In this document: positions 3,680-14,819 of the stretch, in pieces
How positions within the stretch are numbered: the first letter of the stretch is position 1
Layout of the letters: every line of letters starts with the position of its first letter
Assembly (NCBI RefSeq): GCF_024448695.1
Contig: NZ_JAMOHY010000006.1
Coordinates: 62,001-126,000, forward strand
Direction of reading: 5' to 3'
Source of the DNA: Stutzerimonas stutzeri
GTDB lineage: Bacteria; Pseudomonadota; Gammaproteobacteria; Pseudomonadales; Pseudomonadaceae
Length of the DNA stretch: 64,000 nt
Program-made: the position numbers and the translations under genes
Notes under the pieces: generated by a model
What the model was told of the DNA's origin: nothing
What the model saw: only the letters and a program-made list of their open reading frames with translations
Databases searched by the model: none

Positions 3680-4927
3680 TCATTCGGAAAAAAGAGCCAA
3701 CTCCGGCTCCAAGCTAGCAGGCTCTAGAAACTGCTGCATCAAGCGAGCAACATGAGACATAACACCAACCACTACGGAATTTCCAAACTGCTTGTATGCG
3801 CGCGTATCAGACACCGGAATACGGAAAGTATCCGGAAACCCCATCAAACGAGCACACTCTCGCGGGGTAAGACGGCGCGGATTATTTCCATCACCTTGAT
3901 CTACGAGAATTTCAGAACCGTCTTTGTAATAACGAGCTGAAAGAGTGCGGGTAACACTATCTGGGCCGACCAGTCCAAACCCGAACCCGTTACCTTTTGC
4001 ACGATGCTTTGCTGCATACATCTGCAAATATGCCCAGAGCCTTGGTGTGAGAGTGTATTTATCAGGCACCTGTCTAACGTCATGATCAAAGAAACGCTTG
4101 CCATCCCACTCCAGCACAGGCTCCGTACCATCTGTACGGTGGAGAATATCTTTCAGGATACGGCTACCCTTTGCCGGTAATGGCAAGGCGTCCCAGTCAA
4201 AAGCCACTTGCTCACGGAATCCAACAATAAGAATTCGCTCGCGATGCTGCGGTGTAAAGTGCGCACCGTCGATTACTTTATGAAAGATGTGATAGCCCAG
4301 CTCGTCTCTTAACGTCTGGCGAATTACTTCAAAAGTTCGCCCCTTATCATGCGACATTAGGTTTTTGACGTTTTCCAGCAGGAAAGCGCGTGGCTTTTTA
4401 TGAGCAATGATGCGTGCAACGTCAAAAAATAATGTGCCTTGGGTTGCATCCTGAAAACCGTGGGCACGGCCAAGAGAGTTCTTTTTTGACACTCCGGCAA
4501 TTGAAAACGGTTGGCAAGGAAATCCAGCCAGAAGCACATCATGATCCGGTATTTCAGCCTCATGGAGCTGAGTGATGTCGCCATTCAGCGCGTGCTGATC
4601 GCGATGATTGGCTTGATAGGTACGCTGCGCATAAGCGTCCCATTCACTGGTAAAAACACATTTTCCTCCAATGGACTCGAATGCCAAACGCAACCCACCA
4701 ATACCGGCAAACAGGTCAATAAAGGAAAAAGCGCCTTCGGCTTGCTCCTCATCAAGAGGGATAACCATTTGCTTAAGACGATCGACAACATAGGGCTTGG
4801 GCTTTGTCTCACCAATTTCCCAGCGTCGAACAGTACCTACGTCCACTTCGAGTGCTGTGGCGAGGTCACGACGACTGTAGGACTTGAACGCCTCTTGGAG
4901 ATAATAATTGACCTGCGCGCTGCTCAT
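3680..4927 (-). CDS. dcm: DNA (cytosine-5-)-methyltransferase, Dcm/M.EcoRII family
   Basis: Methylates cytosine C5, probably in CCWGG by close similarity to E. coli Dcm, protecting DNA from the EcoRII-like nuclease. The 415-residue protein has an N-terminal helix-turn-helix-like segment (about 20-45, [20 protein letters not shown]). Methylase motifs follow: [10 protein letters not shown] at 69-78 (SAM binding), GFPCQPFS with catalytic Cys at about 138, ENVKNL at about 185-190, PQHRER, and a C-terminal [11 protein letters not shown]...QFGNSVVV block. The ATG at 4927 has GGAG seven bases upstream; a longer frame to 5044 adds residues unlike the family and is rejected. It leads the restriction-modification operon and may regulate itself, as M.EcoRII does through its N-terminus. 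Confidence 0.96.
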
Positions 4928-4952
4928 TTTTAGCTCCAAAGGGAATTTTTTG

Positions 4953-4984
4953 TGCATTCTGCATAAAAAACAACAACTGTACAA
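4953..4984 (-). promoter_or_regulatory. Candidate dcm operon promoter with overlapping palindrome
   Basis: Read on the minus strand, TTGTAC (4984-4979) and CAGAAT (4961-4956) are 17 nt apart, about 30-55 bp upstream of the dcm ATG. The palindrome TGCATTCTGCA (4953-4963) covers the -10. This would suit autorepression by the N-terminal DNA-binding segment of the methylase. The hexamers are weak (3/6 and 4/6 matches), so this is a candidate only. Confidence 0.35.
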
Positions 4985-5156
4985 GCAGCCAGTATCACTT
5001 CCTTCGTCTTGGCCCCACGCTTGATTCCGCACCAAAGCCGCCACCCAAAACCCCTCTGATACTTCCTCGGTTACGCGCTAGCACACTGCCCGCGATGGCC
5101 AGCGCCGAGCACCTCCAAGCTTGATATGCTCATCGCGTACTGTCATCGGAGGTGCC

Positions 5157-6545
5157 GTGTTCTCATTGAAGCGCCAGGGCGATTTTCGCCTGCAACTGAC
5201 CCGCACGCTGACCAAACCGGGCCGGCATCTGGTCGAGCTGTACCTGTTCACCCCCCATGAGACCACCTTTTCCACCCGCACCCTGACCGAGGATCAGTTC
5301 TTTCACAGCGCCCTGGTCCATCGCTTCCGCCTGCTCGGCCTGCCGACACAGGACCGGGCCAGCAAGCTGGACACTTCCTTTTCCCTGCTTTCGCCGCACT
5401 ACGAAATCATGCACGGCGCCTGGTTCTTCCAGTACCAGGCGTCCCTGGATCGTCTGCGCCAGCAATTTCAGGGCAAGGCGAGCGCCGAACCCCTGGGACG
5501 TGCATTACGGCTCAGTCAGAACTTCGGCCAGCGACTGCGCAAGGCAGAACCGAAGGGGAGCAAGCAAGCGCGCTATTTCCGCCAGCTGGATATCTATTTC
5601 TCCTGGCTGGCAGAGCAGTTCCTGCTGGAAAGCATGATGCTGGAAGGCTACGACGACCTCGATGACGAGCTGAAACTGGGGGTGCAGGAATTTCTTCAGC
5701 AGGAGCAGCGCTACCGCACCGATCGTGATTACCTCGGTGATTTCAAGGGCCCGCCGACCCGCGTCTGGAACCGCATGAGCCTTTATGTGCGGCTGCTGGA
5801 GTATCCGGTGGTACTGCGCCAGAAGGTCATCGAGCTGGGCGCCGGCACCCGCAAGCTGGTCAAAGCGACGTCCACCATGTTGATCATGTCGCTGTTCACC
5901 TATTTCCTGTTCAACGTGCGCGACGCCAGCCAGAAACTTTCCCTGGCGCTGCTGGTGGGTATCGCACTGATCTATGCGGTGCGCGATCTGCTGCGTGACG
6001 ACCTGAACGAGACCGTCACCCGCTGGCTGCGCAAGGGCAAGCCGCGCTGGAGGCTGCGCCTGCTGATGCCCTACACCCAGAAGCTGATGGCGCAGCAGCT
6101 GGTCTGGCTCGATTACCGCAAGCTCTCCGAACTGAGCAAAGCGGTGCGCGAGCATTCGGGAAAATGGGCGACCAACGAGGAGCGGCAGATCGTCTGCTAC
6201 CGCTCACGGCTGATACTGGACAAGGCAGCCCTGACCCAGGACGAAATCCAGGAGCGCCTGATTCTGGATTTCGAGCCGTTGTCCGCGCTGATCCAGGCCA
6301 GTCACCAGCAGCTGTTCGAGTGGAAGCGAGAAGAGGGTCAGCCACCGGTCGTTCAGGCTCACACCATCGAAAAGCAGCATGACTACAACCTGCTGGTGGT
6401 GTGCCGACAGCCGGGGCAGGAGGAACCCCTGGCGCAACGCTGGACACTGCGGCTGGGCGCCGCCGGCATCGTGCGCTGCGAGAACAAGTCGGTGGCCTGG
6501 CCCGAATCATCACCACGGCGGAGCCTGTGGCGGCGGGGCCGATGA
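5157..6545 (+). CDS. Unknown two-helix inner-membrane protein
   Basis: Function not recognised; I recall similar uncharacterised proteins in pseudomonads. The GTG at 5157 is chosen because a strong GGAGG lies five bases upstream, giving 462 residues. A soluble N-terminal region (about 1-230) is rich in aromatic and charged residues and leucine-rich helices. Two adjacent membrane helices follow (about 238-254 and 261-280), then a charged C-terminal domain of about 180 residues. Both soluble parts are probably cytoplasmic, joined by a hairpin anchor. The last residues (SSPRRSLWRRGR) are abruptly arginine-rich and end 5 bp before the convergent thioredoxin gene of the arsenic island. The native C-terminus may therefore have been replaced when the island arrived. 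Confidence 0.75.
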   Translation: MFSLKRQGDFRLQLTRTLTKPGRHLVELYLFTPHETTFSTRTLTEDQFFHSALVHRFRLLGLPTQDRASKLDTSFSLLSPHYEIMHGAWFFQYQASLDRLRQQFQGKASAEPLGRALRLSQNFGQRLRKAEPKGSKQARYFRQLDIYFSWLAEQFLLESMMLEGYDDLDDELKLGVQEFLQQEQRYRTDRDYLGDFKGPPTRVWNRMSLYVRLLEYPVVLRQKVIELGAGTRKLVKATSTMLIMSLFTYFLFNVRDASQKLSLALLVGIALIYAVRDLLRDDLNETVTRWLRKGKPRWRLRLLMPYTQKLMAQQLVWLDYRKLSELSKAVREHSGKWATNEERQIVCYRSRLILDKAALTQDEIQERLILDFEPLSALIQASHQQLFEWKREEGQPPVVQAHTIEKQHDYNLLVVCRQPGQEEPLAQRWTLRLGAAGIVRCENKSVAWPESSPRRSLWRRGR

Positions 6546-6805: not shown

Positions 6806-7810
6806 TTAGAGGAACAGGTGGGTGAAGGTGTTGAACAGGTAGCCGATCAGCATGATGCCTGACACGACGATGGCCAGAAACAGGATCAGCAACGGCGCCT
6901 TGACCACCTTCTTGAGCATGATCAGCGATGGCAGCGACAGCGCGGTTACCGCCATCATGAAGGCGAGCACGGTACCCAGGCCGACCCCCTTGGCCACCAG
7001 CGACTCAGCAATCGGCAGGGTACCGAAGATATCGGCATACATCGGTGCGCCTGCCAGGGTCGCCAGCGGCACCGACCACCAGTTGTCGCTGCCGAGCAGC
7101 GCAATGATCAGGTCCTGTGGAATCCAGTTGTGGATGGCCGCCCCGATACCCACACCGATCAAAATGTACAGCCAGACCTTGCGAATGATTTCCCCGACCT
7201 GCTCACGGGCGTAGCTCAGACGGTCGCCCAGAGTCAGCTGGTCCTGCGGCAGTTCCAGCACCTTCTGCTGGGTGACGAAGGCTTCGACGTACTGTTCCAT
7301 GCGCGCCTTGCCGATCAGGGTGCCACCGACCACCGCCAGCACAATCCCCACCACGACGTAGGCCAGGGCAATTGACCAGTTGAAGATGCTAGCCAGCAGG
7401 ATCATCGACGCCAGATCGACCAGCGGCGAGGAGATCAGGAACGAGAAGGTGACTGCCAGCGGCAGACCCGAGCTGGTGAAACCGATGAACAGCGGGATCG
7501 ACGAGCAGGAGCAGAACGGCGTGACCGTGCCCAGCAATGCCCCGGTGAGGTTGGCCCGGAAGCCGCGCAGGCCACCCAGAATGCGGCGAGTGCGCTCGGG
7601 TGGAAAATAGCCCTGCACCCAGGAAATGGCGAAGATCAGCACCGATAACAGGATGAATATCTTGATCACGTCATAGATGAAGAAATGCAGGCTGCCACCG
7701 AGGCGGCTGGCCATGTCCAGGCCGAACACATCTTCAACCAGCAGTTGCACCAGCCAGTGCAACCAGTCCATGCGCAGCAGTTGATCATTCAGCCATTTGA
7801 AAATATCCAC
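6806..7810 (-). CDS. ArsP-like permease (DUF318 family)
   Basis: Predicted eight-helix inner-membrane permease of the ArsP/YraQ group, whose characterised members export trivalent organoarsenicals. The diagnostic GTVTPFCSCSSIPLF cysteine motif is in the first half, followed by hydrophobic segments and a hydrophilic central loop (about 190-215). The GTG at 7810 is chosen (334 aa) because GAGGAAA sits upstream and it avoids overlap with acr3, whose stop is at 7821-7823; an ATG at 7846 would overlap. It lies between acr3 and the small thioredoxin. Calling it arsP is reasonable from the motif and context, but substrate cannot be read from sequence. Confidence 0.86.
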   Translation of the reverse strand: MDIFKWLNDQLLRMDWLHWLVQLLVEDVFGLDMASRLGGSLHFFIYDVIKIFILLSVLIFAISWVQGYFPPERTRRILGGLRGFRANLTGALLGTVTPFCSCSSIPLFIGFTSSGLPLAVTFSFLISSPLVDLASMILLASIFNWSIALAYVVVGIVLAVVGGTLIGKARMEQYVEAFVTQQKVLELPQDQLTLGDRLSYAREQVGEIIRKVWLYILIGVGIGAAIHNWIPQDLIIALLGSDNWWSVPLATLAGAPMYADIFGTLPIAESLVAKGVGLGTVLAFMMAVTALSLPSLIMLKKVVKAPLLILFLAIVVSGIMLIGYLFNTFTHLFL

Positions 7811-7820
7811 GCTGCTTTCC

Positions 7821-8900
7821 TCAGTGATGCGCCAGCCCACGCTCATACCAGGTGCTGCTGTTGTTGATCATCTTCACCAGCCAGAGCATCACCGGCACCT
7901 CGATCAGCACTCCGACTACCGTGGCCAGCGCCGCGCCCGAGTTGAAGCCGTAGAGCACGATGGCCACCGCCACCGCCAGCTCGAAAAAGTTCGAGGCACC
8001 AATCATCGCCGCAGGCCCGGCAATATCGTGGCGAACCTTGAGTTTGCGGCACATCCAGTAGCCCAGCGCGGCGATGCAAAGGGTCTGCAAAAGAATCGGC
8101 ACGGCCAGCATGGCGATGATCAGCGGCTGCGCGACAATGGTCTGGCCCTGAAAGGAAAACAGCAGCACCAGCGTGGCCAGCAGGGCAACGATGGAGAACG
8201 GGCCGATGCGTGCGAGCACAGCTTGCAAGGCTGCTTCACCTTGACGCAGCAGGCGCTTGCGAATGAACTGGGCAATCGCCAGGGGGATGACGATGTACAT
8301 CACCACTGAAAGCAGCAGGGTGTCCCAGGGCACCGGGATCGACGACACACCCAGCAGCAGGGCAACGATGGGCGCGAAGGCGAATACCATCACCAGGTCG
8401 TTGATTGCCACCTGCGTCAGGGTGAAATTGGCGTTGCCGTTACACAGGTGGCTCCAGACGAAGACCATGGCCGTGCAGGGCGCCGCACCCAGCAGAATCA
8501 GCCCGGCCACGTAGCTGTCGATCTCCTCGGCCGGCAGCCAGCCGGCGAAGACATGGCGCAGAAACAGCCAGGCCATAAAGGCCATGGTGAAAGGCTTGAT
8601 CAGCCAGTTGATGCTCAGCGTCACGCCAAGACCGGCGCGCTGCTCATAGACTTCGCCGATGGCGCTGAAATCGATCTTCATCAGCATCGGAATGATCATC
8701 ACCCAGATCAGCAGGCCCACCGGAATATTCACCTGGGCGACCTCCAGTGCACCTACGGCCTGGGCTGTCTCTGGGGCGAACAGACCGAGCAGCGTGCCAC
8801 CGATGATGCACAGAAAGACCCAAAGCGTCAGGTAACGCTCGAAAAACCCCAGAGGGGCGCCTGCAGCTTGTTTGGCGACGACTTCACACTGGCTGGACAT
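7821..8900 (-). CDS. acr3: ACR3-family arsenite efflux permease
   Basis: Ten-helix antiporter that expels arsenite from the cytoplasm. The 359-residue product has the ACR3 signature LLGAAPCTAMVF with the conserved cysteine at residue 142, and a late GASNFFELAVAVAIVLYG segment with the conserved glutamate. The ATG at 8900 has AGGAAA seven bases upstream; the ATG 39 bases earlier is less likely. It follows arsO by 50 bp and precedes the permease by 10 bp in the left arm of the island. The efflux role is established for the family. Confidence 0.95.
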   Translation of the reverse strand: MSSQCEVVAKQAAGAPLGFFERYLTLWVFLCIIGGTLLGLFAPETAQAVGALEVAQVNIPVGLLIWVMIIPMLMKIDFSAIGEVYEQRAGLGVTLSINWLIKPFTMAFMAWLFLRHVFAGWLPAEEIDSYVAGLILLGAAPCTAMVFVWSHLCNGNANFTLTQVAINDLVMVFAFAPIVALLLGVSSIPVPWDTLLLSVVMYIVIPLAIAQFIRKRLLRQGEAALQAVLARIGPFSIVALLATLVLLFSFQGQTIVAQPLIIAMLAVPILLQTLCIAALGYWMCRKLKVRHDIAGPAAMIGASNFFELAVAVAIVLYGFNSGAALATVVGVLIEVPVMLWLVKMINNSSTWYERGLAHH

Positions 8901-8950
8901 TGCAATTTCCTGGTAACTGAGTGACGGCCTGTGCGGCACTCGGATGCTTT

Positions 8951-10024
8951 CTATTGAGCTGTATCGCCCTGCAGGGCTTCTGCTATCTCACTGACCGTGC
9001 TGCGGGCAGTGCGGGTGACGCCGATCAGGGTGGCCGATGCTGCCCCGGTCCATTCGCCATAACCGACCAGCCACAGCCCGGGCTGTTTGAGCGCGCGGGT
9101 TCCATCGACAGCGATCCTGCCGTCGGCCTCCAGCACATTCAGACCTTGCAGATGATCAAGCGCCGGGCGAAAACCCGTGCACCAGATCACTGCATCCACG
9201 GCCTCACGGCGACCATCGGCCCACTCCACGCCCTCTTCCGTGAAACGCTGGAATGGCCGCTCGGCCACCAGCACGCCGCGCTCGCGGGCCTCACGGACGG
9301 GTTCAACCATCACGATATCGCCCAGGCCGCCCACCGGCTGATCGATCACGCGGCCTTCCTGCTGGGCCTTCCAGCGTTCGGTGGCGCGCTCGAATAACAC
9401 CCGGCCATCGACCTCATCAGGCAGAAAAGCCGGCGGCTCCGGGGTGATCCACAGGGTGTCGGCGACTTTGGAGACCTCGGCGAGAATCTGCGCCCCGGAG
9501 TTGCCACCGCCCACCACCAGCACTCGCTTGCCGGCAAAAGCCTGCGGATCGCGATAATGCGCCGAGTGCAGCTGCTGGCCGGCAAACTGCGCGCGGCCTG
9601 GGTAGGCCGGGATAAAGGGTTTGCTCCAGGTGCCGGTGGCGCTGACCAGGGCGCGACAACGCCACTGCCGAAGGCCGGCCTGCACCACAAACAGTTCCCC
9701 CTGGCGTGTCACGGCATCGACATGCATCGGTCGCAGAATGGGTAACTGATAGCGGGCCTCGTACCGGGCAAGGTAATCGATCACCGCATCGCGGTGCGGG
9801 TAGCCAGGCTCCTGGCTGGGCATCTGCCAGCCGGCGATGGAGCTCCAGGTTGCCGGGGAAAACAGCCGCAGCGAATCCCAGCCATGCTGCCAGGCGCCGC
9901 CGGGTTGCGCCTGGTCATCCAGCAGCAGATACGCCAGCTGAGTGCGACGCAGAAAGTAGCCGGTGGCCAGCGCAGCCTGACCACCGCCAATCACCAGCAC
10001 ATCCAGCGGCGCTTGCGTCGTCAT
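8951..10024 (-). CDS. arsO: ArsO-type flavin-dependent monooxygenase
   Basis: FAD/NADPH oxidoreductase of the flavin monooxygenase superfamily found in arsenic operons; its reaction in vivo is not settled. The 357-residue protein has an N-terminal FAD fingerprint ([17 protein letters not shown], about 11-27), an FMO-like [11 protein letters not shown] motif in mid protein, a second Rossmann fingerprint ([12 protein letters not shown]), and a late ATG-like WCTGFRPAL segment. The start has AAGGAG nine bases upstream. It is the first gene of the left arm, divergent from the ArsC-ArsR fusion across a 114-bp control region. Confidence 0.9.
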
Positions 10025-10076
10025 GCAGTCGCTCCTTGGTTGCTTGCCACAGCAAGCGGCCCGTCAATACATATGG

Positions 10077-10105
10077 TTTACAATATATACGGATTTAAAT
10101 ATATT
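10077..10105 (+). promoter_or_regulatory. Promoter and likely ArsR operator of the right arsenic arm
   Basis: TTTACA (10077-10082) and TATATT (10100-10105) are separated by exactly 17 nt, each a 5/6 match to the sigma-70 consensus, and would start transcription about 27 nt before the ATG at 10139. The inverted repeat AATATAT (10082-10088) and ATATATT (10099-10105) overlaps the spacer and -10, a good position for repression by the ArsR domain encoded just downstream. The divergent arsO gene shares this AT-rich intergenic segment; I could not place its own hexamers. Confidence 0.7.
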
Positions 10106-10138
10106 CGCCAAACCGAATTTTAATGGCGCACCGTGGCA

Positions 10139-10912
10139 ATGACGTCGAAAACCCGAGTGTTGTTTCTCTGTGTGGCCAATGCCGCTCGCTCGCAGATGGC
10201 CGAAGCCCTGCTGCGCCACACCGACCCCGAAAACTATGAGGCCTTCAGCGCCGGCACAGTACCGGGAGAAGTCGATCCCCGTGCGCGCCTGGCGCTTGAG
10301 CAACTGAGGGTGAGCTGCGAGGGCCTGCACAGCAAGCCTCTGGAAGACTTCGACGGTCAGCAGTTCGATTACGTGATCACGCTGTGCGACAAGACTGCCT
10401 TCGAGTGCAGCACCCTGCCGGGGGCCAGTGAGTACATCGCCTGGGACTTCGAAGACCCGGCCAGCAGCCGCCGGCGCGACGCCTACAAGACCACCCTCCA
10501 GCAGATCCACGAACGCATCAGGATGTTTGTGCTGGTCAAGAGCAAGGCCCCTTCACCCGTGCAGATGCTCGCACCGGTCAGCCTGTTCAAGTGTCTGGCC
10601 GATGACACCCGCGCCCGTATGACCCAGCTGATCGTGGTGGAGGGTGAATTGTGCGTCTGTGAACTGACCGCCGCACTGCAGGAAAGCCAGCCGAAAATTT
10701 CCCGCCACCTGGCCCAGCTGCGCAGCTGCGGCCTGCTGCAGGATCGCCGCGCCGGACAGTGGGTCTACTACCGTCTGCACCCGCAACTGCCGGCCTGGGT
10801 CGGCGAAACCCTGACCCAGGTGCTCAAGGCCGATGACCCGCAACTGGCCGAAGATCGCCTGCGTCTGCACAGCATGCGCGACCGTCCCGATCGCACATCG
10901 CTGTGCGGCTGA
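10139..10912 (+). CDS. ArsC-ArsR fusion: arsenate reductase joined to arsenic-responsive repressor
   Basis: Two proteins in one 257-residue chain. Residues about 1-135 are a low-molecular-weight-phosphatase-fold arsenate reductase: P-loop CVANAARS with nucleophile C11, redox pair in TLCDKTAFEC, and WDFEDPA carrying the general acid. Residues about 145-250 are an ArsR/SmtB winged helix with the As(III)-binding ELCVCEL motif. The third cysteine of the plasmid R773 type motif is replaced by Thr. Recognition helix QPKISRHLAQLRSCGLL and the YYRL wing follow. The ATG at 10139 or the GTG at 10133 may start it; neither has a clear Shine-Dalgarno. It is the first gene of the right arm and would control its own promoter. 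Confidence 0.93.
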   Translation: MTSKTRVLFLCVANAARSQMAEALLRHTDPENYEAFSAGTVPGEVDPRARLALEQLRVSCEGLHSKPLEDFDGQQFDYVITLCDKTAFECSTLPGASEYIAWDFEDPASSRRRDAYKTTLQQIHERIRMFVLVKSKAPSPVQMLAPVSLFKCLADDTRARMTQLIVVEGELCVCELTAALQESQPKISRHLAQLRSCGLLQDRRAGQWVYYRLHPQLPAWVGETLTQVLKADDPQLAEDRLRLHSMRDRPDRTSLCG

Positions 10913-10936
10913 TCTACCGGTACCCGGAGAACGTCC

Positions 10937-11647
10937 ATGACCGTTGAATTGCCCAATATCGACCCCGAACTGCTGGATCTGCCCAGTCAGGCAGCGCCGG
11001 TACAACCGACTGCTACACACAGGCCGCGCATACTGCTGCTTTACGGCTCCAACCGGGCGCGCTCCTACAGCCACCTGCTGACCGAGGAGGCCGCGCGCCT
11101 CCTGCAGCAGTTCGGCGCCGAGACGCGAATATTCAACCCCAGCGGCCTGCCCCTGCCGGATGACGCCCCGGAGGACCACCCCAAGGTGCAGGAGCTGCGT
11201 GAACTGGTGCTGTGGAGTGAAGGCATGGTCTGGTGCTCGCCCGAGCGCCACGGCGCGATGGCCGGAGTGTTCAAAGCACAGATCGACTGGATTCCGCTGA
11301 GCATGGGCGCGATCCGTCCGACCCAGGGCAAGACTCTGGCGCTGATGCAGGTATCCGGCGGCTCCCAGTCGTTCAACGCGCTGAACCAGATGCGCGTACT
11401 CGGCCGCTGGATGCGCATGTTCACCATCCCCAACCAGTCCTCCGTAGCCAAGGCCTGGCTCGAATTCGACGAAGCCGGACGGATGAAGCCCTCGGCCTAT
11501 TACGACCGGGTGGTAGATGTGATGGAAGAACTGGTCAAGTTCACCCTGCTGCTGCGTGACCGCACCGACTACCTCGTGGATCGCTACTCCGAACGCAAAG
11601 AGTCCGCCGAGCAGCTGTCCAAACGGGTCAATCAGGCATCCATCTAA
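10937..11647 (+). CDS. arsH: ArsH, NADPH-dependent FMN organoarsenical oxidase
   Basis: Flavodoxin-like FMN protein; characterised ArsH enzymes oxidise trivalent methyl and aromatic arsenicals to the less toxic pentavalent forms. The 236-residue product has the phosphate-binding [12 protein letters not shown] near residue 38, [21 protein letters not shown] at about 97-117, and the ArsH-specific [22 protein letters not shown] segment region, followed by a helical C-terminus. GGAG lies eight bases before the ATG. It is 24 bp after the ArsC-ArsR gene and clearly in the same operon. Confidence 0.95.
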
Positions 11648-11669
11648 TCAGTTGCAGGATCACATCATC

Positions 11670-12164
11670 ATGCCCCACCCTTTCGACACTCTCGACATTC
11701 CTGCCCGCCCCGGTCGGCTGATCTTCACGCCCTGCCCAGGCACCAGGGACGGCAGCATCGATCAGGCCCTCGACACACTCAAACAGGCCGGCGCCGAGGC
11801 AGTGCTGACCCTGATGCCATCCGCCGAACTGGCGCAAAACGCGGCCAGCGATTTGCCTGCGCTGTGCGCCGCGAAGGACCTGCTCTGGCTGCATTTACCC
11901 GTGGCTGATGAACAGGTGCCGCAGGCAGATTTTGATGCGGCCTGGGCGGCGACCATTGTGCAGATTCAAGAGCTGCTGGCGGCTGAAAAGGCCATCGCCA
12001 TTCACTGCAAAGGGGGCTCGGGACGCACCGGCCTGGTTGCCGCGCGCATCCTGATCGACTGCGGTCTGCCGCACGCCGAGGCCGTTGCGATGGTTCAGAC
12101 CCTGCGTCCCAAGGCCATTCAGCACCCCGCTCATGTGAGCTGGCTCGAACGCTTCGGCCAATAG
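11670..12164 (+). CDS. Dual-specificity/tyrosine phosphatase in the arsenic operon
   Basis: A 164-residue cysteine phosphatase. The P-loop HCKGGSGRTG gives catalytic C113 and R119, and an upstream LPVADEQVP loop (about 77-85) supplies a likely general acid. The fold resembles the kinase-associated/CDKN3-like phosphatase group rather than the ArsC group. It lies 22 bp after arsH and 9 bp before ynfA, so it is an integral operon member. Its substrate is unknown. Hydrolysis of a phosphorylated or arsenylated metabolite is one idea given the GAPDH-ArsJ pair downstream; nothing in the sequence proves it. The ATG at 11670 is chosen; the open frame upstream overlaps arsH. Confidence 0.88.
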   Translation: MPHPFDTLDIPARPGRLIFTPCPGTRDGSIDQALDTLKQAGAEAVLTLMPSAELAQNAASDLPALCAAKDLLWLHLPVADEQVPQADFDAAWAATIVQIQELLAAEKAIAIHCKGGSGRTGLVAARILIDCGLPHAEAVAMVQTLRPKAIQHPAHVSWLERFGQ

Positions 12165-12173
12165 GCAGCCGTC

Positions 12174-12500
12174 ATGCTCAAGACCTTTGCCCTGTTTGCC
12201 GTCACGGCCCTGGCCGAGATTGTCGGTTGCTATCTGCCCTATCTCTGGCTTCGTCAGGGCAAGAGCGCCTGGCTACTGGTACCGGCCGCCGCGGCACTGG
12301 CTTTGTTCGCCTGGCTGCTGTCGCTGCACCCGACCGCCGCCGGACGCGTCTACGCAGCCTACGGCGGCGTCTACATCGGTGCGGCGATCCTCTGGCTGTG
12401 GCTCGTCGACGAAATCCGCCCCACCGGCTGGGATCTGCTCGGCTCTGCCGTGGCCCTCACCGGCATGGCCATCATCATGTTCGCGCCTCGAAGCGCCTGA
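12174..12500 (+). CDS. ynfA: YnfA-family small membrane protein
   Basis: A 108-residue, four-helix inner-membrane protein of the YnfA (UPF0060) family, related to small multidrug resistance exporters. Visible features are [14 protein letters not shown] near the N-terminus, [19 protein letters not shown] in the third helix, and [19 protein letters not shown] before the fourth. It is set tightly between the phosphatase and the GAPDH gene. A transport role is inferred from family and context; no arsenic-specific residue is evident. Confidence 0.9.
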
Positions 12501-12515
12501 CACAGGGGAATCAGC

Positions 12516-13520
12516 ATGACCATCAAAGTAGGCATCAACGGCTTTGGCCGTATCGGGCGACTGGCCCTGCGCGCGGCATGGGGCTGGCCGGAACTTGAGT
12601 TCGTACAGATCAACGACCCCGCCGGCGATGCCGCAACCCACGCCCACCTGCTGAATTTCGACTCGGTGCATGGCCGCTGGCAGCATGAGGCGGGCAGCGC
12701 TGACGACTGCATCGTCATCGAGGGCAGGCGCATCAAGGTCACCGCCAACAAGGCCATTGCCGACACCGACTGGAGCGGCTGCGATCTGGTGATCGAGGCC
12801 AGCGGCAAGATGAAGACGGTTGCCGTGCTGCAAGGCTATCTGGATCAAGGCGTTAAGCGCGTGGTGGTCTGCGCGCCAGTGAAAGAGCCGGGCGCGCAGA
12901 ATATCGTGATGGGCGTCAACGATCAGCTGTTCGATCCTGCCCGACACCGCATCGTCACCGCGGCGTCCTGCACCACCAACTGCCTGGCGCCGGTGGTCAA
13001 GGTGATCCATGAGGCGCTCGGCATCCGCCACGGCTCGATCACCACCATCCACGACCTGACCAACACCCAGAGCATTCTCGACACTCCCCACAAGGACCTG
13101 CGCCGTGCCCGCGCCTCCGGCATGAGCCTGATCCCGACCAGCACCGGCTCGGCCACGGCGATTGCCGAGATATTCCCGGAGCTGCGCGGCAAGCTGAACG
13201 GCCATGCGGTACGCGTGCCGCTGGCCAACGCCTCACTGACCGATTGCGTGTTCGAGCTGGAGCGAGCGACTACGGTAGAAGAGCTCAATGCGCTGCTGAA
13301 AGCCGCCGCAGACGGTCCGCTCAAGGGCATTCTCGGTTATGAGGAGCGCCCGCTGGTCTCCATCGACTACCGCACTGACCCGCGCTCGTCGATCATCGAC
13401 GCGCTCTCGACCATGGTGGTCAACGGCACCCAGGTGAAGATCTACGCCTGGTACGACAACGAGTGGGGCTACGCCAATCGCACCGTGGAACTGGCGCGAC
13501 TGGTCGGCTCGACTCAATAA
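12516..13520 (+). CDS. ArsJ-associated glyceraldehyde-3-phosphate dehydrogenase
   Basis: Uses arsenate in place of phosphate to form 1-arseno-3-phosphoglycerate, which ArsJ exports; this partnership is established for arsJ-linked GAPDHs. The 334-residue protein has the NAD fold [14 protein letters not shown] at 7-20, the catalytic cysteine at 152 in [10 protein letters not shown], a substrate-side histidine in the following helix, and the closing [11 protein letters not shown] motif. A housekeeping role cannot be excluded, but the position between ynfA and arsJ argues for the dedicated arsenic version. Confidence 0.95.
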
Positions 13521-13546
13521 ATCACCACGTCCTGTTCCACTGCTCC

Positions 13547-13576
13547 GGTGGAAATGCTGCGCGATTTCCACCCTAC
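13547..13576. repeat. REP-like hairpin between GAPDH gene and arsJ
   Basis: GGTGGAAAT and ATTTCCACC form a perfect 9-bp stem around an 8-nt loop, followed by CTAC. The right arm shares the CCACCCTAC end of the larger REP-like elements at 57372 and 59295. It lies between the GAPDH stop and the preferred arsJ start, where it could tune mRNA stability or arsJ translation. Confidence 0.6.
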
Positions 13577-13595
13577 GCCGGATCGACCCTCTCCC

Positions 13596-14819
13596 ATGCC
13601 CAGCCTCAGCCGACTTTCCCCTGAAATCCGCCAGTACCTGCTGGTCACCGGCAACTACTGGGCCTTCACGCTCACCGACGGCGCGCTGCGCATGCTGGTG
13701 GTGCTGCATTTTCATGGCCTGGGCTACACGCCGCTGCAGATCGCCGCGCTGTTCCTGTTCTATGAAATATTCGGTGTAGTCACCAACCTGCTGGGTGGCT
13801 GGCTGGGCGCGCGTATCGGTCTGAACCGCACCATGAACATCGGCCTGGGCCTGCAGGTAGCGGCGCTGCTGATGCTGACGGTGCCGGCAGCCATGCTCAC
13901 GATCCCCTGGGTGATGGCCGCGCAAGCGCTATCAGGCATCGCCAAGGACCTGAACAAGATGAGCGCCAAGAGCTCGATCAAGATGCTGGTCGCCGATGGG
14001 CAACAAGGCACGCTCTACCGATGGGTGGCGCTGCTGACCGGCTCGAAGAATGCGCTCAAGGGTGCAGGGTTTTTCCTCGGCGGCGTGCTGCTCGCCGTCA
14101 TCGGCTTTACCGGCGCGGTGCTGGTGATGGCTGCCATGCTGGCGCTGATCTGGCTGGCCAGCCTGTGCCTGCTGAAAAAGGATCTGGGCAAGGCGAAGGT
14201 CAAGCCGAAATTTCGCGACATCCTCTCCACAAGCCGCGCCATCAATATCCTCTCGGCGGCGCGGCTGTTTCTCTTCGGCGCCCGTGATGTCTGGTTCGTG
14301 GTGGCCCTGCCGGTCTACCTGTCAGCCAGCTTCGGCTGGGACTTCTGGCAGGTCGGCGGCTTTCTCGCGGCCTGGGTGATCGGCTACGGCATCGTGCAAT
14401 CCTTCGCGCCGCATTTCACCGGCAAGCGCAGTGGCAGGGTGCCGGATGGTCGCGCCGCCTTCATCTGGGCCGCACTGCTGGCCGGTCTGCCAGCAGTCAT
14501 CGCCCTGGGCCTGGGCAGCGAACTGCCGGCGCAACCCGTGCTGATCGGCGGCCTCATGCTGTTCGGCGTGCTGTTCGCCATCAACTCGTCGCTGCACAGC
14601 TACCTGATCGTCAGCTACGCCAGGGAAGACGGCGTATCACTGGATGTCGGTTTCTACTACATGTCCAACGCGCTGGGTCGGCTGCTCGGCACCCTGCTCT
14701 CGGGGTGGGTGTTCCAGGTGCACGGGCTGGAGGCCTGCCTGTGGGTATCCAGCGCCCTGTTGTTGCTGGCCGCGCTGATCGCCATCGGCCTGCCGCGGCA
14801 TGCCATCACGCTGAACTGA
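13596..14819 (+). CDS. arsJ: ArsJ, major-facilitator exporter of 1-arseno-3-phosphoglycerate
   Basis: Inner-membrane transporter of the major facilitator superfamily (407 aa, about 11-12 helices) that removes the unstable arsenylated metabolite made by the adjacent GAPDH. Family-typical segments are RQYLLVTGNYWAFTLTDGALR near the start, GGWLGARIGLNRTMNIGLGLQ and SGIAKDLNKMSAKSSIK. In-frame GTG 13548 and ATG 13554 lie inside the REP-like hairpin and give an unusual N-terminus, so the ATG at 13596 is preferred. It is the last gene of the right arm. Confidence 0.94.
   Translation: MPSLSRLSPEIRQYLLVTGNYWAFTLTDGALRMLVVLHFHGLGYTPLQIAALFLFYEIFGVVTNLLGGWLGARIGLNRTMNIGLGLQVAALLMLTVPAAMLTIPWVMAAQALSGIAKDLNKMSAKSSIKMLVADGQQGTLYRWVALLTGSKNALKGAGFFLGGVLLAVIGFTGAVLVMAAMLALIWLASLCLLKKDLGKAKVKPKFRDILSTSRAINILSAARLFLFGARDVWFVVALPVYLSASFGWDFWQVGGFLAAWVIGYGIVQSFAPHFTGKRSGRVPDGRAAFIWAALLAGLPAVIALGLGSELPAQPVLIGGLMLFGVLFAINSSLHSYLIVSYAREDGVSLDVGFYYMSNALGRLLGTLLSGWVFQVHGLEACLWVSSALLLLAALIAIGLPRHAITLN

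Follow-up and report, generated by a model that had tools for sequence, protein, structure and literature searches.

The window, a stretch of 64,000 nucleotides from Stutzerimonas stutzeri, encodes a protein of 257 residues in which an arsenate reductase (ArsC) and an arsenic repressor (ArsR) follow one another in a single polypeptide, with a short linker between them. Judged from its sequence, this protein may be an arsenic repressor that carries its own domain for arsenate input, in which As(III) produced in cis loads the cysteine pair C172/C174; we put the chance of this at about even. The open frame runs from 10133 to 10912 on the forward strand, with an ATG at 10139 and a TGA at 10910-10912, and the assignment of the arsC-arsR fusion gene to 10139-10912 is based on this frame, on domain matches and on relatives. 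The frame and the domain matches bear out the original prediction that a single chain holds both a reductase and a sensor of the As(III) type.

The ArsC domain (residues 4-131, 10148-10531, forward strand) has the low-molecular-weight (LMW) phosphatase fold, as seen from the match to Pfam LMWPc (residues 7-130, 66 bits against a cut-off of 23) and from the matches of the AF2 model. Its CX5R loop, CVANAAR, contains the catalytic nucleophile C11 (10169-10171) and R17 (10187-10189), both of which are intact in nearly the whole family. The second and third redox cysteines are C83, within a TLC motif (10385-10387), and C90 (10406-10408), the counterparts of C82 and C89 of pI258 ArsC; D106-P107 is also retained. 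The curated ArsC families score below their cut-offs (59 against 174 bits for TIGR02691, the thioredoxin type, and 56 against 158 bits for TIGR02689). The ArsC half is thus related to both curated subfamilies but belongs to neither, being a divergent subfamily, and in the ArsC tree the fusion-type ArsCs form a clade separate from the usual operon ArsCs with a branch support of 100.

The ArsR domain (residues 145-257, 10571-10909) matches Pfam HTH_5 (ArsR, PF01022) over residues 157-201 with 45 bits against a cut-off of 22, and NCBIfam PRK10141 (ArsR; NF007528) is also above its cut-off. The sensor pair C172-V-C174 (10652-10660) lies at the position of the R773 ArsR pair, with T177 at the position of the third R773 cysteine. 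It had been claimed beforehand that the reductase cysteines and the CxC pair were all intact and that the third R773-type cysteine was missing; C11, R17, C83, C90, C172 and C174 are indeed all there, and T177 accounts for the missing one. In R773 ArsR two of the three cysteines suffice and CVC is common in stand-alone ArsRs, making the two-of-three arrangement unremarkable. The mean dN/dS among nine fused close relatives is 0.083 for the ArsC half and 0.061 for the ArsR half, which argues that both are under purifying selection. The linker (residues 132-144, 10532-10570), with a mean dN/dS of 0.27, evolves fast and is predicted from its low pLDDT to be flexible.

In the AF2 model of the monomer (mean pLDDT 85, pTM 0.54) residues 138-140 fall below a pLDDT of 50. 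The ArsC half superposes on Staphylococcus aureus pI258 ArsC (1ljl) with a TM-score of 0.89 on the target and also matches Deinococcus indicus ArsC2 (8p5n/8p6m), the scores ranging from 0.86 to 0.89 on the target. While the fold and the three redox cysteines are shared with these enzymes, the identity is only 28-34% and both of them stand alone. Given the low confidence in the linker and the pTM of 0.54, no fixed channel is predicted, and the suggestion that product is channelled locally to the sensor finds no support in a linker predicted to be flexible and an uncertain placement of the domains.

Downstream of the fusion on the forward strand lie arsH (10937-11647, TIGR02690 above cut-off), a dual-specificity phosphatase resembling VarH (11664-12164, from phosphatase families and from its position, which is that of varH in PMC9601151), a ynfA (UPF0060) membrane protein gene (12174-12500, from family matches and from its occurrence in the same place in several relatives), an ArsJ-associated gapdh (12516-13520, NF033735 above cut-off) and arsJ (13548-14819, NF033734 above cut-off). 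With a repressor gene, gapdh and arsJ together (the latter two at 12516-14819), the locus is a gapdh-arsJ operon of the var type. Divergent from it, on the reverse strand, are an arsO monooxygenase gene (8951-10024, NF040505 above cut-off), the arsenite pump gene acr3 (7821-8939, TIGR00832 above cut-off) and a gene for an arsP-like permease (6806-7846, PF03773). The fused ArsC is the sole reductase encoded in the cluster. Elsewhere in the genome PF03960 matches two Grx-type ArsC-family genes. Two further LMW phosphatases lack the TLC...C signature of ArsC when inspected by eye, which leaves the fusion as the only three-cysteine ArsC found in the genome.

The region between the two arms contains two promoter-like sites where 0.2 would be expected. 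A sigma-70-like promoter for the fusion operon, TTTACA-17-TATATT (10077-10105, forward strand), matches at 10 of 12 positions and is conserved in 22 relatives. It is overlapped by a divergent promoter-like site from the sequence scan, TTGGCG-18-TATATT (10082-10111, reverse strand), directed towards arsO-acr3-arsP. Within this region lies an operator-like element, ATATATACGGATTTAAATATATTCG (10083-10107), the presumed site of the ArsR half. The AT-rich block, ATAT...AATATATTCG, occurs once in the window and is conserved 5' of the gene in fused as well as split relatives; as a conserved sequence block it is presumed to be the candidate operator.

In the explanation that we favour, a dimer of the ArsR half would occupy the AT-rich element of the promoter region that the two arms share (10077-10111), repressing both of them, fusion-arsH-varH-ynfA-gapdh-arsJ on one side and arsO-acr3-arsP on the other. 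Arsenate would enter the CX5R pocket of ArsC, where, as the intact residues suggest, C11, C83 and C90 would reduce it. The As(III) made beside the repressor would then load C172/C174 and the protein would leave the DNA, such that the operon would answer arsenate as well as free arsenite. Tethering would raise the level of As(III) nearby; we do not propose a tunnel. Coupling arsenate to the switch makes sense because the fusion heads operons with gapdh-arsJ, which act on arsenate, and a reductase on the repressor would fill a gap, since these operons export arsenate whereas As(III) is what an ordinary ArsR detects. With no other reductase encoded in the cluster, the fused ArsC probably also feeds Acr3. 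It counts against this explanation that, with Acr3 present, a plain reductase role would suffice in this cluster.

Fusions with the ArsC domain first are common in the Gammaproteobacteria. In the sample of the order, 30 of 392 genomes, besides the window's own, have a match that reaches 1e-50 or better, and 28 of these matches are listed as full-length; of 30 loci whose surroundings were read, 25 have gapdh-arsJ. Searches at the family level found matches in 48 of 180 and 45 of 178 genomes. With a single sequence as the query there was no match at 1e-40 in the sampled genomes of the class; a profile search brought out further fusions in other orders of the class. Every ArsC-first fusion among the matches listed for the phylum sample comes from the Gammaproteobacteria, and among these matches the ArsC-first family is, as far as seen, confined to that class. 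A locus from another class (L266) has the reverse order, with ArsR first, and lies beside acr3.

The fusion usually heads a gapdh-arsJ operon. In the context counts (49 fused, 59 split and 60 other arsJ loci, which include close relatives and are not independent), gapdh and arsJ lie within 7 kb at 43 of the 49 fused loci and an arsenite pump is found at 36 of them, a second ArsC is nearby at 9 fused loci against about 50 of the 59 split loci, arsJ is present at 28 of the split loci, and a stand-alone ArsR occurs at 44 of the 60 arsJ loci that were sampled and have no fusion. The rarity of a second arsC at fused loci, together with the conserved promoter and operator block, is further support for in-cis supply of As(III). 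On the other hand, a stand-alone ArsR with CVC takes the same place in many gapdh-arsJ operons, which means that such an operon does not require the reductase half. Three loci (L165-L167) have the fusion placed between gapdh and arsJ rather than at the head of the operon, with a sensor motif that reads CVN. Two complete genomes (G294 and G325) have fusion-gapdh-arsJ, and in neither whole genome was there an acr3 or arsB above the family cut-off, from which it would seem that the reductase hardly serves bulk detoxification there; an arsP-like permease near the fusion could be an alternative exit for As(III).

The two sets of functional residues have not been kept equally across the family. Of 118 fusions, 116 retain the reductase residues C11, R17, C83 and C90 and 80 the CxC pair, such that 78 fusions have both intact, 38 have kept the reductase and lost CxC and 2 have lost the reductase and kept CxC. 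The two intact halves, the purifying selection on them and the retention of both in 78 of 118 fusions across the Gammaproteobacteria speak for in-cis supply of As(III). In the 38 fusions that have lost CxC, As(III) would be unreadable at that site, and most of these have no cysteine at all in the ArsR part. On a quick tree with some long branches the sensor changed at least three times and the reductase twice, the losses of the reductase being single tips (L262 and L264) whereas the loss of the sensor marks large clades. L262, in its 7.7-8.5 kb region, and L264 have a dead reductase half, with C11, R17 and C83 replaced, and an intact CxC; fusions that keep the sensor without the reductase residues count against in-cis supply. 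Among the stand-alone ArsRs of arsJ loci the CVC pair is present in 41 of 46, and the difference in CxC retention between these and the fusions (Fisher p 0.005) is indicative only, the rows being related. The idea in the original prediction that enzyme and sensor are coupled is partly supported: it is plausible for the window protein, given the arsenate-acting gapdh-arsJ at most fused loci, but the fusions that lack CxC speak against it as a general rule.

Such losses are found in a Vibrio-type clade (L297-L323 and L328-L347, family f228), with Vibrio campbellii (NZ_CP050465.1) as a named member, a match that came from a protein search with a Vibrio-type sequence. These proteins have kept the reductase triad while their ArsR part is mostly free of cysteines, and C9, R15, C81 and C88 (L297 numbering) are invariant in their alignment (A3). 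Most of the operons read fusion-varH-gapdh-arsJ and have no pump; at two loci (L339 and L346) acr3 is present and a separate ArsR lies beside it. A nucleotide search of plasmids with the Vibrio-type locus gave no match, and annotated phages searched with the Vibrio-type protein gave only split or partial matches and no close one. In V. campbellii the fusion (L348, 4481-6744, and L337) has no gapdh-arsJ close by and is divergent from another MFS transporter, and possibly it regulates this different exporter. Because the Vibrio-type clade has lost the sensor and kept the reductase, a reductase that makes As(III) for the adjacent sensor cannot cover the whole family, and across the family it is more likely that the ArsC domain is an arsenate-input domain.

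This leads to the best-surviving alternative, that the ArsC half is itself the sensor, with bound arsenate, a C11-arsenate adduct or the C83-C90 disulfide that arises during turnover shifting the ArsR half directly. It would act with or without C172/C174, CxC being an older and dispensable As(III) input. The alternative fits the unequal retention of the two sets of residues, the equivalents of C11, C83 and C90 often being the sole thiols in the Vibrio-type proteins, and it fits the invariance of C9, R15, C81 and C88, the mostly pumpless operons and the separate ArsR that accompanies acr3 in L339 and L346. It also draws on pI258 ArsC, which changes shape when C82 and C89 are oxidised. The pTM of the L297 AF2 model (0.71, with pLDDT 91) exceeds that of the window model, as if the domains pack, though the alignment depth and the sequences differ. 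Both models are of monomers whereas ArsR acts as a dimer. The window CxC is under strong selection, which suggests that binding of As(III) by thiols still matters, and two stand-alone ArsRs of arsJ loci (L232 and L233) lack CxC in the absence of any ArsC. For the window protein we regard direct sensing as possible but less than likely. Within the Vibrio-type clade it is probably what happens, since the ArsR part there cannot bind As(III) through thiols. A broader reading, also less than likely, is that throughout the family the ArsC half has turned from a reductase into a sensor of arsenate that acts straight on the ArsR half through C11, C83 and C90; this would have replaced As(III) sensing in the Vibrio-type proteins and left the window protein with two inputs, arsenate and arsenite.

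A further alternative is that the fusion couples nothing. By this account the chance loss of a stop codon joined two translationally coupled genes and the halves work alone, with ArsC doing the bulk reduction, ArsR serving as a normal As(III) repressor and equal dosage as the most that was gained. The split relatives lend this some weight. In other Pseudomonas the two genes adjoin in the same order but are split, with a spacing of -4 to +12 bases in most split relatives: in L012-L020 and L175-L177 they are in frame, one stop codon away from fusion, with 9-12 bases to the arsR start, and in L031-L074 they overlap by 4 bases. This retention of adjacency and order suggests that the gene pair was already a unit before the fusion, which speaks for in-cis supply of As(III). 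Comparison of the junctions shows that where split relatives have a stop codon and an arsR ribosome-binding site the fused ones have the linker, and on the ArsC tree, which has few columns and many open forks, the fused and split states interchange with at least six changes, two of them forced by well-supported branches. The flexible, poorly conserved linker and the position of the fused ArsC as the cluster's sole reductase are also as this account would have it. However, the fusion persists through most of the class and in many genera, and the reductase residues persist without an encoded arsenite pump and without ArsR cysteines. It would moreover be an odd design for a bulk enzyme to be held at the abundance of a repressor and repressed by the other half of its own chain, and we think an uncoupled fusion improbable. 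An internal start that yields free ArsR was considered and is not general, the ribosome-binding site of the split genes being gone in the fused genes compared; the Met preceding LAPV, though present in most of the close relatives, is missing from L011, L017, L087 and L089.

Although relatives often have split versions, an artefact of sequencing, assembly or frame, or chance, is practically excluded by the ten close relatives (L003-L011 and L022) that are fused likewise with 80-91% identity per domain, by more than 100 further in-frame fusions and by selection on both halves. The window fusion, in its cluster at 6806-14819, is 80-91% like those of L003-L011 and G267, which are Pseudomonas of another genus group, but only about 65% like its counterparts within its own genus, a pattern that points to transfer between genera.

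Fusions of ArsR and ArsC as such are known. They are described, as ArsR-ArsC, for Leptospirillum ferriphilum, Microbacterium and Sinorhizobium (PMC6205960) and in the actinobacterial clusters C4 and C7 (PMC6514093), and a sensing advantage has already been proposed for them (PMC6205960). Like the window protein these combine ArsR and an LMW-phosphatase-type ArsC in one chain; the window family is set apart from them, going by these descriptions, in having ArsC first, a divergent ArsC and a tie to gapdh-arsJ. Other fusions, ACR3-ArsC of Mycobacterium, AqpS-ArsC of Salinispora and ArsRM of Brevundimonas (PMC6205960, PMC6514093, PMC10190100), likewise join ArsC or ArsR to a second arsenic function, but there the partner is a transporter or a methyltransferase. 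The operon arsC1-arsR-arsC2-acr3-arsH of Pseudomonas stutzeri TS44, as quoted in PMC6595428, has the arsC1-arsR order of the split loci L012-L079, L106 and L108; as quoted there its genes are separate and include a second ArsC that is absent from the window cluster.

Another known parallel is the var operon of Vibrio cholerae, arsR-varG-varH-arsJ, which is inducible by arsenate, has an altered As(III)-binding motif in its ArsR and, in the strain studied, makes no measurable As(III) (PMC9601151). It too has gapdh, a phosphatase and arsJ under a repressor, but that repressor (VC1068) is described as a plain ArsR. The same paper raises the puzzle that arsenate is exported while ArsR senses As(III), and leaves arsenate sensing open (PMC9601151). 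A literature search, mostly without subscription journals, found no report of an ArsR that senses arsenate and has a reductase domain, and none on an ArsC-first family, its tie to gapdh-arsJ or the retention of the reductase where the As(III) site is lost; to that extent these last three are new here. A widespread repressor led by an intact arsenate reductase, often minus its As(III) site, offers a concrete, testable answer to the puzzle and, if true, would provide biosensors with a natural switch specific for arsenate.

The ars cluster adjoins an orphan-looking C5 DNA methyltransferase gene (3680-5044, reverse strand) whose product has an N-terminal helix-turn-helix-like part. Between this gene and arsP lies an open reading frame of 474 residues (5121-6545, forward strand), for which there was no match in a library of defence systems. 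The ynfA gene is found between the phosphatase and gapdh in L003-L010, L175-L177 and L179 as well, and its place inside the ars operon of several relatives suggests that it may be an overlooked arsenic gene.
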